Source of the DNA: Nocardioides plantarum
Lineage (GTDB): Bacteria; Actinomycetota; Actinomycetes; Propionibacteriales; Nocardioidaceae
DNA length: 64,000 nt
Assembly (NCBI RefSeq): GCF_006346395.1
Contig: NZ_VDMS01000001.1
Location: 2,170,001-2,234,000 of the forward strand
Reading direction: 5' to 3'
The position numbers and the translations under genes were made by a program. The notes beneath the pieces are model-generated. The model did not search any database. It worked only from the letters and a program-made list of their open reading frames with translations, and had not been told where the DNA came from. Shown one piece after another: positions 3,023-42,823 of this stretch; the stretch's first letter is position 1, and each line of letters starts with the position of its first letter.

Positions 3023-4428
3023 CGCGAGACCTTGATCAGCTGGGTGGCCTCGTTGGCCTCGGCCTGCTCGTCGACGGGCTCGAGGGCGGGCAGGGGGCGG
3101 CGGGCCTGGTCGGAGATGCGCAGCAGCAGCGCCACGACGACCCAGCTCGCCACCAGCGAGGAGCCGCCGTAGGACAGGAACGACGTGGTGAGCCCGGTGA
3201 GCGGGATGAGGCGGGTGACGCCGCCGATGACGACGAACACCTGCAGCGCGATGATGCCGGCGAGCCCGGTCGCCATCAGCTTGCCGAACCCGTCGCGCGA
3301 GATCACCGCGGTGCGCAGGGCCCGCTCGACGAGCAGGCCGTAGAGGACCAGGACGGCCAGGACGGCGGTCAGGCCGAGCTCCTCGCCGATCGAGGCCATG
3401 ATGAAGTCGGACTCGGCGTAGGAGGTGCGCGCCGGGTCGCCGCCGCCGAACCCGCGGCCGATGAGCCCGCCCCAGGCGAACCCGAAGAGACCCTCGACGA
3501 GCTGGTCGCTGTTCTGGCCGAGCGGGCCGCGGTAGTACTCGAAGGGGTGCAGCCAGGTGTCGACGCGGACGCGCACGTGGCCGAACAGCCGGTAGGCCGC
3601 GGTGGCCCCGGCGAAGAACATCACGCCGCCCACGATGATCCACCCGGGCCGCTCGGTGGCGACGTAGAGCATCAGCAGGAAGAGGCCGAAGAAGAGCAGG
3701 CTGGAGCCGAGGTCCTTCTGGAACACCAGGATGCCGAGGCTGACCAGCCACATCGCCACGATCGGGCCCAGGTCGCGCCCGCGCGGCAGGTCGACGAACA
3801 GCACCCGGCGCCCGGCCAGCGCCAACGCGTCGCGGTGGAGCACGAGGTAGCCGGCGAACGCGACGACCAGCAGCACCTTGGCGACCTCGCCGGGCTGGAA
3901 GCTGAAGGGGCCGACGCCGATCCAGATACGGGCGCCGTTGATGTTCTTGCCGATGCCGGGAAGGATCGGCATGAGCAGCAGCACGATCGCGAGCAACCCG
4001 AACGTGTAGGTGAACCGGGCCAGCACCCGGTGGTCGCGCAGCACGAGCAGGGTGCCGGCGAAGAGGATGACGCCGACCGTCATCCAGGTCAGCTGCTGGC
4101 GGGCGAAGGTGTGGTCCTCGGCCAGGTCGATGCGGTGGATGACCGCCAGGCCCAGCCCGTTCAGGGCCGCCACGACCGGCAGCATCACCGGGTCGGCGTA
4201 CGGCGCCACGAGCCGCACCACGACGTGGGCGCCGACCATCAGCGCCGCGAGCCAGCCGCCGTAGCCGATGATGTCGGGCGGCACCTTGCCCTGGACGCCG
4301 AGACCGACCGCGGCGTAGCCGCCCACGCCGACCCCGAGTGCGAGTACGAGCAGGAACAGCTCGGCCCCTCGACGCCGCCGGTGGACGAAGCCCATCAGCG
4401 TCGACGGGTTGCCCGGTGTGGTGGCCAT
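3019..4428 (-). CDS. rodA: SEDS-family peptidoglycan glycosyltransferase RodA
   Basis: FtsW/RodA/SpoVE polytopic membrane protein of 469 residues that polymerises lipid II into glycan strands. It has roughly ten to twelve hydrophobic segments. The conserved SEDS signature is seen in the stretch with SDFIMASIGEELG and in the C-terminal PLTGLTTSFLSYGGSS motif. ATG at 4428, 4 bases downstream of the pstP stop, and the 3' end overlaps pbpA by 4 bases. The position between pstP and pbpA is the conserved actinobacterial order, which favours RodA over FtsW. Confidence 0.95.
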   Translation of the reverse strand: MATTPGNPSTLMGFVHRRRRGAELFLLVLALGVGVGGYAAVGLGVQGKVPPDIIGYGGWLAALMVGAHVVVRLVAPYADPVMLPVVAALNGLGLAVIHRIDLAEDHTFARQQLTWMTVGVILFAGTLLVLRDHRVLARFTYTFGLLAIVLLLMPILPGIGKNINGARIWIGVGPFSFQPGEVAKVLLVVAFAGYLVLHRDALALAGRRVLFVDLPRGRDLGPIVAMWLVSLGILVFQKDLGSSLLFFGLFLLMLYVATERPGWIIVGGVMFFAGATAAYRLFGHVRVRVDTWLHPFEYYRGPLGQNSDQLVEGLFGFAWGGLIGRGFGGGDPARTSYAESDFIMASIGEELGLTAVLAVLVLYGLLVERALRTAVISRDGFGKLMATGLAGIIALQVFVVIGGVTRLIPLTGLTTSFLSYGGSSLVASWVVVALLLRISDQARRPLPALEPVDEQAEANEATQLIKVSR

Positions 4429-7403: not shown

Positions 7404-7751
7404 CGTTCGGCCGGCAGAAGAGGAGGCGGAGTTGAACCCGCAAGCTCTACCTGCCCGCTGTGGGCCGCTATGGGGTCTGCTCCGCCCAGGCCAGGCGAAA
7501 CTGAACACCCCACGACGGCCCCGCCGACCCCGGGGAGCATCCTCACCGATGGGGCAGCCGCGTCGTCCTGACCCGCACACCACACTCCACGCCGTGCCAG
7601 AGTCACGCGCCGATGACCGTCCGGCTCCCGCCCTTCCCGGTTGAATCGTTGGGTTCTGGTCGGGTCGCCGTGCGCTGGTGCGGTGCGGTGCGGTGCAGTC
7701 AGGGGGGTCCGTCGAGTGGGGAACTGGCCAACTGGTGGTTAGACAGGATGC

Positions 7752-7763
7752 GTTTAAACAGTT
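7752..7763. promoter_or_regulatory. Second copy of the GTTTAAACAGTT motif
   Basis: GTTTAAACAGTT is identical to 12 of the 16 bases of the palindrome at 7996-8011, and the missing left part is degenerate. It lies 244 bp upstream of the full site. Two spaced sites are consistent with cooperative binding or looping, which is inference. Confidence 0.45.
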
Positions 7764-7995
7764 GCGTCGTGAGCCGAACGCGGACAACACCCCCTGCTGC
7801 CCATCTGCCCAGCTGCCGACCTGCCAGCCCCTGCCGGCCTGACCCAGCTCGCTGGACGACGTGGAGCGACCGACCACGGAATCTCTCCGTTTCGCGCAAC
7901 GAAGTGGTGCTCGACGAACCGGCCCTCGCCCACGGCCGATGCAACGAGGACGGCCGCTAGGTTCGCCGCCGCATACCGGCATCGCTCAACCACCA

Positions 7996-39087: not shown

Positions 39088-39699
39088 TCATTCGGGCGTC
39101 GCGCGCGAGGTCCGGCCGAGTAGACCGACTGCCCCGGCTCGGGCATATGCCGCGGCCGCGACCACGACCGTGGCACCGATGACGATCACGAACGTCGATG
39201 AGACGTCGCGGTTGTAGAGCAGGTTGGCTTCGAACGGCACCAGTCCGGGCGCGCTCATCGTGAAGGCTGTGGCTGCTGCCGGAAGCCATCCGAGTCGGGT
39301 GCCGAGCAACGCGTTGCCGGCGATGTTGACCCCGGCAAGCAGCAAGGTGTCGGCCAGCACGAGCGCGATGGGCAGAGCGACCGCCCAAGCCATCGCAGTG
39401 GAGAACAGTGCAGCCGTCAGCAGGTACCCCGTGATGAGCGCGATCCGCGTGGTGGTGAGGCGACGTGCGGCCGATCGAACGAGGTCGGCAGGGCCTTCGT
39501 CGAGTGCGAGGTTCATGACTGCCAGCGGAATCAGCAGGCCGATGACGACCCCTGAGTCAAACACCTGCCCGCGGGCCTCGTAGGGATACTTGAGCGGGAC
39601 CGTGATGGATGCGAACCCCCACAGGGCCACCCAGCTGCCGACGGCGACCAGCACCCAACGGCGTTCGATGTGGTGAGCGAGCAGCCAGGTTCGGAGCAT
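39088..39699 (-). CDS. Membrane protein of an ABC exporter operon
   Basis: A 203-residue polytopic protein with about six hydrophobic segments, family not recognised. Last gene of a four-gene minus-strand operon (secreted protein, ABC ATPase, large permease, this gene). ATG at 39699 lies 4 bases after the upstream stop. It may be the second permease subunit or an immunity-type membrane protein. Confidence 0.78.
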   Translation of the reverse strand: MLRTWLLAHHIERRWVLVAVGSWVALWGFASITVPLKYPYEARGQVFDSGVVIGLLIPLAVMNLALDEGPADLVRSAARRLTTTRIALITGYLLTAALFSTAMAWAVALPIALVLADTLLLAGVNIAGNALLGTRLGWLPAAATAFTMSAPGLVPFEANLLYNRDVSSTFVIVIGATVVVAAAAYARAGAVGLLGRTSRATPE

Positions 39700-39703
39700 C
39701 GCG

Positions 39704-41074
39704 CTAGCGCTCGATCGTCGCAAAGTCTGACCATTCAACGGTGCCGTCGCGCAGGGACTGCGTGTGTGACTCGAACCAGCTCGCTCGTTCGACGGCGTCC
39801 ATGCCCTCGAACGCGTCGATGTCTGCTGCATGCTGGCTGTAGTCGAGGTAGCGGTCGTCCAGCAGCGGCGCCCCCGCACCGCCTGATCCGTCGACAGGAA
39901 CGTCCAATGCCGTGAGGTACCAGCGGTAGATGGCGTCGGTGGGCGTCGCGGTCGGCAGGATGACCTCACCGCCAGGCTCCGTATCGCCTACATCGACGGG
40001 TGAGGCGGGAATGAGCGCCGCGATGAGGCCGTAGTGAAACTGATCGGTGCTGAGCTGCGTCCGCGCGCTGAGATCACCGGCTTCGGAGAAGAAGACCAAC
40101 ACCCGTCCCTGTCGGTGCTGTTCGGCGGTCACCGTGTTGATCGAGCGATCGGCGTCAGGTGAGACGCCGCGGGCTTCGTCGTCGATGAACGCGACCTCCG
40201 AGGGCAGCAGCCCTTCGAGAAGGTCCAGCCCCCGGCTGGCCTGCGCCATCAGGGCGCCCTCGAGCTCTGACTTCGCCCGCGGCAGACAGATGGTCGTGTC
40301 CGCTTCGGTGGTGCAGGCCATCTCGACGTCCGATGCCGTGACCGCTCGGGTGGCCGGCGTGACGTACAGCAGTGGCGCAGCCGCAAGACCGGCTGCCACC
40401 AGCGCACCGGACGCGGCGCGGGGGAGCGCGGCACGTCGTAGCACCACAGCGGCGATCACGAGGGTCCACAGCAGTGCCTGCAGGACGAGGACCCACCAGA
40501 TGATGTGGTGAAACGTCATCCACCGTTCGTCGACGGGGGTGAGGGAGAGCAGCAGCCGGTCCGCGTTGAATGACAGAAATCCTAGAAGCACGTAGGCGGC
40601 AGCGGCGCAGACCGGGGCTCCGAGATACCACGGCATGCGGGTGCCTGCGAGGTGGCCGAGCGTCGTCATGCCGCCCAGGCAGGCGAGCTGCGCGACGATC
40701 GGGAGTGGACGTGGATGGCCGACGTCGGCCGTCAGCGCTGTGGCGACGTAGGCGGGAGTGCAGGCCAGGACGAAGCCTGCCCAGATCCACACGACAGGTT
40801 CGCCGAGCTCGCGTACGGCGACACAGATCGGCGAGGCGCTCGCCCCCGCTTGCAGCGCGCTCACTCCGCCGCGGGCGTTCTGCGCCCCCACCCAAGCACC
40901 TGCAGCGGATGCGGCCGGGACACCGAAGATGAAGGCAATGCCCACGTAGTTCTGGGTCTCGGACCAGACGCCGAGCCACTGATCCCACCGGCCGACATAG
41001 GTGGCCGGGAGAGAGACGGCCAGCGCGAGGCACAGCGGCAGGCCGCGGCGCCACGTCAGGACGAGCATCTGCAC
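39704..41074 (-). CDS. Large membrane protein of an ABC exporter operon
   Basis: A 456-residue protein with roughly seven membrane helices in its first 250 residues (including WAGFVLACTPAYVATAL and WVLVLQALLWTLVIAAVVL). An extracytoplasmic C-terminal domain of about 200 residues follows, with a Cys pair (MACTTEADTTICLPR). GTG at 41074 is two bases after the ATPase stop; an ATG at 41068 is an alternative start. The permease role is inferred from operon position next to the ATPase. Confidence 0.8.
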   Translation of the reverse strand: MQMLVLTWRRGLPLCLALAVSLPATYVGRWDQWLGVWSETQNYVGIAFIFGVPAASAAGAWVGAQNARGGVSALQAGASASPICVAVRELGEPVVWIWAGFVLACTPAYVATALTADVGHPRPLPIVAQLACLGGMTTLGHLAGTRMPWYLGAPVCAAAAYVLLGFLSFNADRLLLSLTPVDERWMTFHHIIWWVLVLQALLWTLVIAAVVLRRAALPRAASGALVAAGLAAAPLLYVTPATRAVTASDVEMACTTEADTTICLPRAKSELEGALMAQASRGLDLLEGLLPSEVAFIDDEARGVSPDADRSINTVTAEQHRQGRVLVFFSEAGDLSARTQLSTDQFHYGLIAALIPASPVDVGDTEPGGEVILPTATPTDAIYRWYLTALDVPVDGSGGAGAPLLDDRYLDYSQHAADIDAFEGMDAVERASWFESHTQSLRDGTVEWSDFATIER

Positions 41075-41076
41075 GT

Positions 41077-41865
41077 TCAGGGTCCTTCGGTGGACACGAT
41101 GTTGATGAATCCGCTGCGCAGGCGCGACTGACTGGAATCCTCGCCGTCGGAGCTCATGGCCTGCAGCTCATCCGTCGTGCCGTCGAAGGACAGCGAGCCT
41201 TGCTCGAGCACGAGGATGCGGTCTGCCGTCGCCTCGACATCCTCGAGGAGGTGGGTCGAGATCAGCAGCGACCGGTCGGCTGCGAGCGTGCGGATGATGT
41301 CGTGGAATCGCGCGCGCTGTTCGGGGTCGAGGCCAACCGTGGGCTCGTCGAGGACGACGAGGTGAGGGTCGTGGACGATGGCTTGGGCGATGCCGGCACG
41401 GCGAAGCATGCCGCCGGACAGCTGGCCGAGGCGCCGGCGGCGCTGGTCGTCGAGGTCGACCTGATGGATCGCACGGTCGATCGCGGTGCTCGTCTCAGCC
41501 TTGGGCACCGTCTTCAGCCATGCGGCGTAGCGAAGGTATTGCTCGACGGTCATGGACATCGGCGCGGTGAGCGTCTGCGGCAACCATCCCGTCTGCGAGT
41601 GGTGATGCCGCCAGTCCGCCCTCGAGGTAACGGCCGCACCATCACGCAACACGCTGCCGCTCGAGGGCGTCTCGAGGCCGGTGAGGATCCGGCTCAGGGT
41701 CGACTTTCCAGCGCCGTTCCTTCCCAGGAGCACCGTCGTGCCGAGGCCCAGCGTGAAGCTGACCGAGCTGAGCGCCCGAACATCGCCGTAGCGGCGGGAA
41801 ACGTCGGCGAGGCCCACCGCGGTGGCGCGGCGGGCCTCACTCAGATCATGGCGTCGCGTGCTCAC
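41077..41865 (-). CDS. ABC transporter ATP-binding protein
   Basis: A 262-residue ABC ATPase. Walker A is LLGRNGAGKST near residue 48, the signature is QLSGGMLRRAGIAQAI near 150, Walker B is LVVLDEPTVGLDP and the switch His lies in LISTHLLEDVE. The GTG at 41865 overlaps the stop of the small secreted-protein gene (GTGA), and an ATG at 41892 would lie inside it. The coupling suggests the transporter serves the upstream product or protects against it. Confidence 0.92.
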   Translation of the reverse strand: MSTRRHDLSEARRATAVGLADVSRRYGDVRALSSVSFTLGLGTTVLLGRNGAGKSTLSRILTGLETPSSGSVLRDGAAVTSRADWRHHHSQTGWLPQTLTAPMSMTVEQYLRYAAWLKTVPKAETSTAIDRAIHQVDLDDQRRRRLGQLSGGMLRRAGIAQAIVHDPHLVVLDEPTVGLDPEQRARFHDIIRTLAADRSLLISTHLLEDVEATADRILVLEQGSLSFDGTTDELQAMSSDGEDSSQSRLRSGFINIVSTEGP

Positions 41866-42254
41866 CAGTAGTCGTTGTCTTGAGATCCGCACCCGTCGGG
41901 CAGGCCGGTGCGGTCACGGCAGACCTTCCAGCCCGCGCCATCGGCGCTCGGCGGGATCGGCACGACCTGCGAGCAGGACCCGCCACGCGTCACGTACGAC
42001 GAGGAGGTGGTGTTGTCCGAGATCCGGTCGCAGGTGTAGTCGGTGTAGTTGTTGTAGACCACGATGCCGCGGTAGTACACCTTGTTGCCGGTGTTCGAGC
42101 GCAGGTTTCCGGTCGATGAGAACGACTGGTCACCGTGCGAGGTGACGCGCTGGCTGCCGTTGCCGTCGTTCGACGACACGTTGCCGGCGTAGGCCGCAGC
42201 AGGCGCCAAGGCTACTCCGAGCGTGAGGGCCGCGACCCTCAGCAGTTTCTTCAT
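41862..42254 (-). CDS. Small secreted four-Cys protein encoded with an ABC transporter
   Basis: A 130-residue precursor with a signal peptide (MKKLLRVAALTLGVALAPAA) probably cut after AYA. The mature protein of about 107 residues is Asn/Ser/Tyr/Gly-rich and contains four Cys (DYTCDR, GGSCSQ, KVCRD, DGCGSQ), enough for two disulfides, and ends DNDYW. Family not recognised. It is the first gene of the ABC operon, with its stop overlapping the ATPase start. The arrangement resembles lactococcin 972-type bacteriocin operons, but sequence similarity is not evident, so bacteriocin function is only a hypothesis. Confidence 0.8.
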   Translation of the reverse strand: MKKLLRVAALTLGVALAPAAAYAGNVSSNDGNGSQRVTSHGDQSFSSTGNLRSNTGNKVYYRGIVVYNNYTDYTCDRISDNTTSSSYVTRGGSCSQVVPIPPSADGAGWKVCRDRTGLPDGCGSQDNDYW

Positions 42255-42387
42255 GTGAGCTCCTCGTCGTGGCGGCGGGGCGCCGCAGGGCGACCGTAGA
42301 TTGTCTTTCCTTGTCACGTCTAGATGTCGGACCGACAAGACTGGTCTTGAGCCACGTCGCTGGAGAAGCCCGACTCCCCGGGTGGAC

Positions 42388-42557
42388 CTAGTGGCACGGG
42401 GCCGAAGTTCTTGGCCGCTTCGCGCACTGATGGCACGCACCTCGCGGCAGCGGCGATCCTCGGAAGACAACCGGGTATGCCGTCGGACCGCCGCCACCGC
42501 GAAGGCACGCACCCTGAGCACGCCAAGCCATCAAGAACCTCGGACCCGCGGCACTAG
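42388..42557. mobile_element. 170-bp MITE-like element, copy A
   Basis: The element begins and ends with CTAG and has imperfect terminal inverted repeats: CTAGTGGCACGGGGCCGAAG on the left, while the right end reads inward as CTAGTGCCGCGGGTCCGAGG. Repeats extend about 26 bases to GTTCTTG. It is the reverse complement of the element at 46733-46902, with about 8 differences over 170 bases. No transposase is encoded. It fills most of the gap between two genes, and its right-hand CTAG supplies the TAG stop of the next gene (42554-42556 on the minus strand). Confidence 0.85.
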
Positions 42558-42823
42558 TCGCCGGAGATCTCCTCGATGGCCCGGACCGACTGCCAGGGAC
42601 GGTGGACCGTGTAGCGCGCGTCGCCGTTGCGGGGGTCCATCAGGCAGTCGACCGACCACCAGGTGCGGCGTACGTCGACCACCTGCTGCTCCAGGTAGCC
42701 CGGCGGTGTCGTGTAGCAAGCCTCGCTCGCGTGGTCGAGCGAGACCTGCAGGCCCGACCAGCTCAACCCCGCCGAGACCACCACCAGAGCGGCGGTCACG
42801 AGTGGACGGCGACGGGACGACAC
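42554..42823 (-). CDS. Small secreted protein, 89 residues
   Basis: Short exported protein with an N-terminal hydrophobic signal (LVTAALVVVSAGLSWSG) and two Cys in the mature part (EACYTTPPG and SVDCLMDP). Family not recognised. GTG start at 42823 with GGGGA about 12 bases upstream. The stop TAG falls inside the terminal CTAG of the adjacent 170-bp element, so the natural C-terminus may have been altered by its insertion. Confidence 0.65.
   Translation of the reverse strand: MSSRRRPLVTAALVVVSAGLSWSGLQVSLDHASEACYTTPPGYLEQQVVDVRRTWWSVDCLMDPRNGDARYTVHRPWQSVRAIEEISGD

Follow-up and report, generated by a model that had tools for sequence, protein, structure and literature searches.

A candidate bacteriocin-like secreted protein with proposed ABC self-protection in Nocardioides, and its wider actinomycete transporter family

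Introduction

The described systems closest to the locus reported here combine ATP-binding cassette (ABC) genes with a secreted protein or with protection of the producing cell. According to the passages on them in PMC4055356, PMC11796350 and PMC8538875, Lcn972-type bacteriocins are thought to be Sec-exported proteins that fold into a beta sandwich and bind to lipid II; the ABC genes of their loci are a proposed but unproven immunity function. The staphylococcal Pmt transporter (PmtABCD) is presented, in the part of PMC5354552 concerned with it, as both exporting a peptide toxin and giving the producer immunity to its own secreted peptides. In the lantibiotic immunity transporters LanFEG an ATPase and two membrane proteins guard the producer, and in NosDFY an ABC pair goes together with a secreted partner. 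The latter, NosD, is a beta-helix. Here we analyze a four-gene operon (A-B-C-D) of a Nocardioides-group genome, found in a 64,000-nucleotide stretch of DNA (the window, meaning the whole stretch analyzed; G000:C1:2170001-2234000), which encodes a small secreted four-cysteine protein (A), an ABC ATPase (B) and two membrane proteins (C and D). A search of the open-access literature returned no paper apparently describing this module, which is weak evidence of absence.

Results

We put at roughly even odds (a probability of about 0.5) that the operon encodes a bacteriocin-like secreted protein, A, together with a dedicated ABC self-protection system. Its elements are as follows.

42260-42264, minus strand: AGGAG, probable ribosome-binding site of A, 5 bases ahead of its ATG (read directly)
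41862-42254, minus strand: gene A, four-Cys protein with a signal peptide, 130 aa; homologues in six more genomes
41077-41865, minus strand: gene B, ABC ATPase, 262 aa, GTG start; PF00005 with E 1.8e-29; kept in six A loci
39704-41074, minus strand: gene C, type V ABC permease with an extracytoplasmic domain by predicted fold, 456 aa
39088-39699, minus strand: gene D, membrane protein, probable second permease half, 203 aa

A preliminary description, made from the DNA alone, had reported four tightly packed genes encoding a secreted four-Cys protein, an ABC ATPase and two membrane proteins of unrecognized family, and each of these points was borne out. The stop codon of A overlaps the start of B by four bases (GTGA, with the GTG of B at 41865), and gaps of 2 bases (41077/41074) and 4 bases (39704/39699) separate B from C and C from D. 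The genes are not a chance set, since the order A-B-C-D is kept in 6 of the 7 distinct genomes holding A (G000, which is the window's own, G062, G035, G023, G359, G404 and G135; the nearest A-bearing relative is Nocardioides gilvus). The single-sequence search with A was positive in 5 of 145 relatives, counting G000, and the profile search in 5 of 294 genomes of the family, every one within the genus, and in 3 of 393 genomes of the class. On named genomes the profile returned two loci, both already in the set, and no plasmid copies of the window's A or C were found. At the most distant A locus (L016, in G404) tblastn gave strong matches for A and B only, with D at E 0.003 and none for C. In G135, all that follows the homologue of A (profile E 3.5e-13) is a gene with a weak likeness to D (E 8e-5); neither the ATPase nor C was found after it. 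Thus the dedicated transporter proposed in the preliminary description is supported by co-occurrence in six of the seven genomes; A is neither found mainly apart from the ABC genes nor matched to a known enzyme family.

Three peculiarities of individual loci were observed. The ATPase of G023 (L008, about 8085) reads as if frameshifted; in G308 (L078), close to G023, the triad is present and no peptide is visible; and L016, a locus in a metagenome-assembled genome, has a short tandem repeat at 7748-7918, immediately ahead of the start codon of its A homologue.

The apparent signal peptide of A occupies residues 1-23 (pattern KK..hydrophobic..AYA, ending in AYA) and, with the cleavage site judged by eye, leaves the mature 107-residue protein that had been described, with cysteines at positions 75, 94, 112 and 122. 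Two of these, Cys 112 and 122 near the C-terminus, are invariant in six aligned A sequences; the remaining two are gained or lost as a pair (both are missing in G359), a pattern that fits two disulfides. The AlphaFold2 model of A, built from the six-sequence input, is all-beta with 8 strands (predicted local distance difference test score, pLDDT, 87.9, within a range of 72.5-87.9 over five models; predicted template modelling score, pTM, 0.81). Fold searches with it returned only generic immunoglobulin (Ig)-like and fibronectin type III-like sandwiches (best Foldseek E 0.026; best Z 7.9), and no specific PDB relative of the fold was found, all Z scores being under 8. When the A profile was searched against PDB sequences, the best E was 0.17. 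Against Pfam the best E for A was 0.29, against NCBIfam there was no match, and among the PHROGs there was one family of function unknown at E 0.019. No relative of A, C or D reached a curated Pfam or NCBIfam cut-off, and the PADLOC scan matched none of the three; a known enzyme, defence or phage family was accordingly dropped as an assignment for them.

In the comparison of the window genome with N. gilvus, the nonsynonymous divergence (dN) is lowest for A (0.20, versus 0.41 for B, 0.67 for C and 0.76 for D), with synonymous divergence (dS) near saturation at about 1 (0.96 for A). As the most constrained gene of the four, A appears to be a real, working protein.

The secretion signal of A bears on the role of the transporter, which the preliminary description had called an exporter of the peptide. 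The structure and order of the operon would suit a dedicated exporter, yet A has its own Sec-type signal and lacks a double-glycine leader, and C has no peptidase domain match in the Pfam and NCBIfam scans. Because of this signal, self-protection is likelier than export of A by B-C-D, and we consider the exporter the most doubtful of the readings weighed here.

B is an ordinary ABC ATPase whose closest solved structures, by sequence, belong to the ABCA family, and it falls under the cut-off of every one of the 25 NCBIfam models listed. Against TIGR03740 it reaches 117.5 bits, where the cut-off is 309.75, which sets it apart from the LanFEG ATPase despite the shared plan of an ATPase with two membrane proteins; lanthipeptide genes were likewise not recognized at the locus. 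The daunorubicin exporter DrrAB was also considered and rejected, with B scoring 155.1 bits against the 312.45 cut-off of TIGR01188.

For C the best Pfam E was 0.064; D matched nothing in Pfam, and neither matched NCBIfam. The model of C (pLDDT 78.1, pTM 0.70) comprises about six transmembrane helices (residues 8-236) followed by a domain of about 210 residues (about 247-456). Residues 1-218 match the type V permeases NosY (Z 13.3, root-mean-square deviation 3.3 over 209 residues), ABCA4 (11.6), CcmABCD (10.5) and PmtCD (10.1); by Foldseek the best E was 0.021 with probability 1.00. On this modelled fold, C is a type V (ABC-2 type; NosY/PmtCD-like) permease with an added extracytoplasmic domain, and D is its probable second half. 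The added domain opens with a two-Cys hairpin (C254/C263), and both cysteines are present in all 24 aligned C proteins, a set chosen to cover every context. The likeness of Pmt to C is one of fold; Pmt differs in that it also exports its peptides and in that C has the extra extracytoplasmic domain.

The fit to NosY suggests that A might serve the ABC complex as an extracytoplasmic accessory subunit, in the way that NosD goes with NosFY, so that the pump would work conformationally on A or A would pass it a substrate. Besides the closest solved fold of C coming from a complex with a secreted partner, this reading gains from the strict linkage and gene order and from A being better conserved than C and D. 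A is predicted to be an Ig-like sandwich, not a beta-helix like NosD. No nitrous oxide (nos) genes were seen among seven neighboring proteins scanned against Pfam. The wider family, described below, weakens the accessory role.

The preliminary description had also likened the gene order to that of lactococcin 972 loci, while noting that the peptide did not look like a member. The outline of the likeness stood, in that a small Sec-type protein with a (for A, predicted) beta-sandwich fold is encoded first and ABC genes follow; the kinship did not. At E<=1, PF09683 matched neither A nor any of five homologues, the G135 one among them (the homologue scan took in P0005, P0007, L003, L004, L013 and L005); across 226 class genomes it was positive in 4, with G000 and G062 among the negatives. 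The four control loci found in this way contain no match to C or D: L102 and L103 encode the peptide, a membrane protein of 696 or 692 aa and an ATPase, L104 is similar with a merged 794-aa call, and L105 has no visible partner. Thus, one partner of about 690 aa is replaced in the window by C (456 aa) and D (203 aa), and the window ATPase is of another type and lies before the permeases. Lcn972 is without cysteines, as stated in the relevant part of PMC8538875, whereas A has four. The solved LCN972 structure lies outside the fold matches listed for A, which is uninformative either way. Membership of A in this family was dropped on the absence of PF09683 and the different membrane partner and ATPase; judged from sequence, the operon would at most work like an LCN972 locus.

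The C profile, built from the A-type loci alone, matches at least 41 of 393 class genomes and at least 12 of 294 family genomes, these counts being lower bounds as 4-5 candidates were scored per genome. B-C-D thus forms a broad actinomycete family found in two settings, either with extracytoplasmic function (ECF) sigma/anti-sigma genes or with small secreted Cys proteins. In the first setting, seen in many genomes of the class (e.g. L050-L065, L081), the ATPase, C and D follow a gene pair encoding an ECF sigma factor and, putatively, its anti-sigma protein (a weak zf-HC2 match in the one tested); the permeases tested from these sigma-type triads fall outside all Pfam and NCBIfam families. In the second setting a small secreted protein stands immediately ahead of the ATPase. 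Eleven such loci beyond the A type, plus one remnant (L042), are headed by members of four further peptide families (F2-F5), with mature lengths of about 75-136 aa and four cysteines (two in F5). The F2-F5 representatives scanned had nothing better than chance matches in Pfam and NCBIfam.

F1: the A family
F2: L049, L093; remnant in L042
F3: L066, L082
F4: L094, L096, L085, L048
F5: L088, L089, L091 (two tandem copies)

The families are kept separate because matches between them are weak or nil. Common ancestry was considered and not adopted: the likeness of F1 to F3 is confined to a short C-terminal match (P about 0.006), F2 and F5 compare at 39.8% probability, and the others show none (F2 and F3 entered this comparison with two members each). 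Within the window's own genome there is a second locus of this kind (L049, 4202-7280 of G000:C1:1786000-1797000, near G000:C1:1790200), headed by an F2 four-Cys protein unrelated to A. Two tandem diverged F5 copies precede one triad in L091 (about 3278-4245) and in L107 (4001-4929).

The association was assessed with a filter for a same-strand open reading frame (ORF) of 70-200 aa ending no more than 200 bases before the gene, with a signal-like N-terminus, at least two Cys and no further transmembrane segment. It passed 13 of 35 focal ATPases versus 4 of 349 control genes taken from the same DNA and, with the A-type six left out, 8 of 29 versus 4 of 349 (Fisher p 1.8e-7). The four control passes looked unlike secreted proteins on inspection, and the real cases L091, L093 and L016, which the filter misses, were counted as misses. 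Peptide type tracks the ATPase tree: over its 42 rows the peptide labels need 18 changes versus 25.1 when shuffled, with 0 of 200 as low. The rows of F2 and F5 sit in starred sets of the tree, each also holding one peptide-less row; F1 and F3 are not single clades, and the short row L054 is unreliable. The sigma label falls on 11 of the 42 rows, some narrow loci being not judgeable.

Triads without a visible peptide adjoin peptide-bearing ones (L078, L079, L080, L083, L087, L092); L084 is isolated in the tree, and L095 is cut by a contig end. A peptide without the transporter was seen twice, in G135 (with its D-like remnant) and in Streptomyces sp. S8 (a short peptide gene). Transporter-less peptides are therefore rare and decayed-looking, and peptide-less transporters do occur. 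These observations speak against A as an accessory subunit, as the pump stays constant while its partner comes from several unrelated families, and the sigma-type triads and several near relatives have no such partner at all. We consequently hold that role to be unlikely, its structural appeal notwithstanding.

The sigma-type setting raises a different prospect, namely that A, once secreted, serves as a signal or as a ligand for sensing, which the ABC transporter would read or clear, thus setting the level of communication. A small secreted protein with a dedicated ABC transporter would fit such a scheme, as would the position of the pump in other lineages behind ECF sigma/anti-sigma genes, which encode signalling proteins. 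However, the A loci have neither a sensor kinase nor a regulator in common, and a folded sandwich of 107 aa is large for a pheromone. We regard a signalling role as improbable.

Some peptide-headed loci lie on Streptomyces linear plasmids. Eight Streptomyces plasmid records contain F5 peptides, and in 7 of them the ATPase, C and D adjoin; four of these loci read peptide-ATPase-C-D from the annotation, and two were inferred from match coordinates only. In S. alboflavus pMDJK44.2 (L126, 3845-7133) the order is permuted to peptide-C-D-ATPase, with C and D identified by size and position. The short F5 gene of Streptomyces sp. S8 is likewise on a plasmid, with no ABC genes near it, and a Kitasatospora plasmid carries an F4 locus in the standard order. 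All plasmid peptides in annotated records are labelled hypothetical proteins.

The 3' neighbor of the operon in the window is an amidinotransferase-like gene, not apparently part of it; 29 of the 39 relatives have this gene when matches of every strength are counted. A test for empty sites by this flank revealed none, the 13 aligned loci matching the window only inside the amidinotransferase-like gene. On the other side, 300 bases upstream of A, a minus-strand ORF of 89 aa (42554-42823) has one hydrophobic segment, two Cys and no Pfam match, and lies outside the operon.

Discussion

Self-protection against A would operate as follows. A would be exported by Sec, as its signal peptide suggests, and fold outside the cell as a disulfide-stapled beta sandwich, where it may act on the envelope of competing actinomycetes. 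B (an ATPase by sequence), C (a permease by predicted fold) and D (its presumed second half) would together make up a heteromeric type V ABC transporter that clears A, alone or in complex with its target, from the membrane of the producer, with the extracytoplasmic domain of C as the probable contact with A. The same triad under ECF sigma/anti-sigma control may be an inducible envelope-defence pump that, once coupled to varied secreted proteins, could provide self-immunity. The strongest computational argument for this reading combines the swappable partner, the contrast between partner-less pumps and decayed lone partners, the occurrence on plasmids and the parallel with sensor-controlled versus self-immunity pumps.

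Extended to the whole family, the proposal is that at least five families of Sec-exported, disulfide-bonded small proteins make up an undescribed class in actinomycetes, guarded by one ABC triad with a two-Cys permease domain. The triad would be an interchangeable immunity cassette, also occurring alone or as an ECF-controlled resistance pump, and moving on linear plasmids. This broader claim we advance only tentatively, holding it slightly less probable than the reading of the single operon.

Several points weigh against self-protection. The strongest is the high conservation of A, which is the best conserved of the four proteins relative to N. gilvus (~77%, versus 57, 36 and 36% for B, C and D); a toxin in an arms race might be expected to vary most, and A varies least, so its constraint tells somewhat against a fast arms race. 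Together with this, the activity of every member is inferred only. No bacteriocin, PADLOC or known-function PHROG family matches were obtained. The sigma-type triads lack a peptide, implying that the basic function of the pump needs none. Finally, the assignment of C and D at L016 relied on their position, size and alignment, which makes their profile scores circular by construction. Overall, a secreted antimicrobial or signalling protein with a dedicated transporter, as the preliminary description had suggested, remains on sequence grounds the best reading, strengthened by the co-occurrence.

The module looks like an overlooked kind of bacteriocin and self-protection system across actinomycetes. 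If this is true, an antagonism system is hidden among the 'hypothetical proteins' of Streptomyces, Kitasatospora, Nocardioides and their relatives, and the two-Cys permease, with the gene ahead of its ATPase, would offer a search handle for new antibacterial proteins. It would also supply immunity genes for direct tests, and would suggest how a resistance pump under stress control and a pump for toxin immunity descend from one ancestor.

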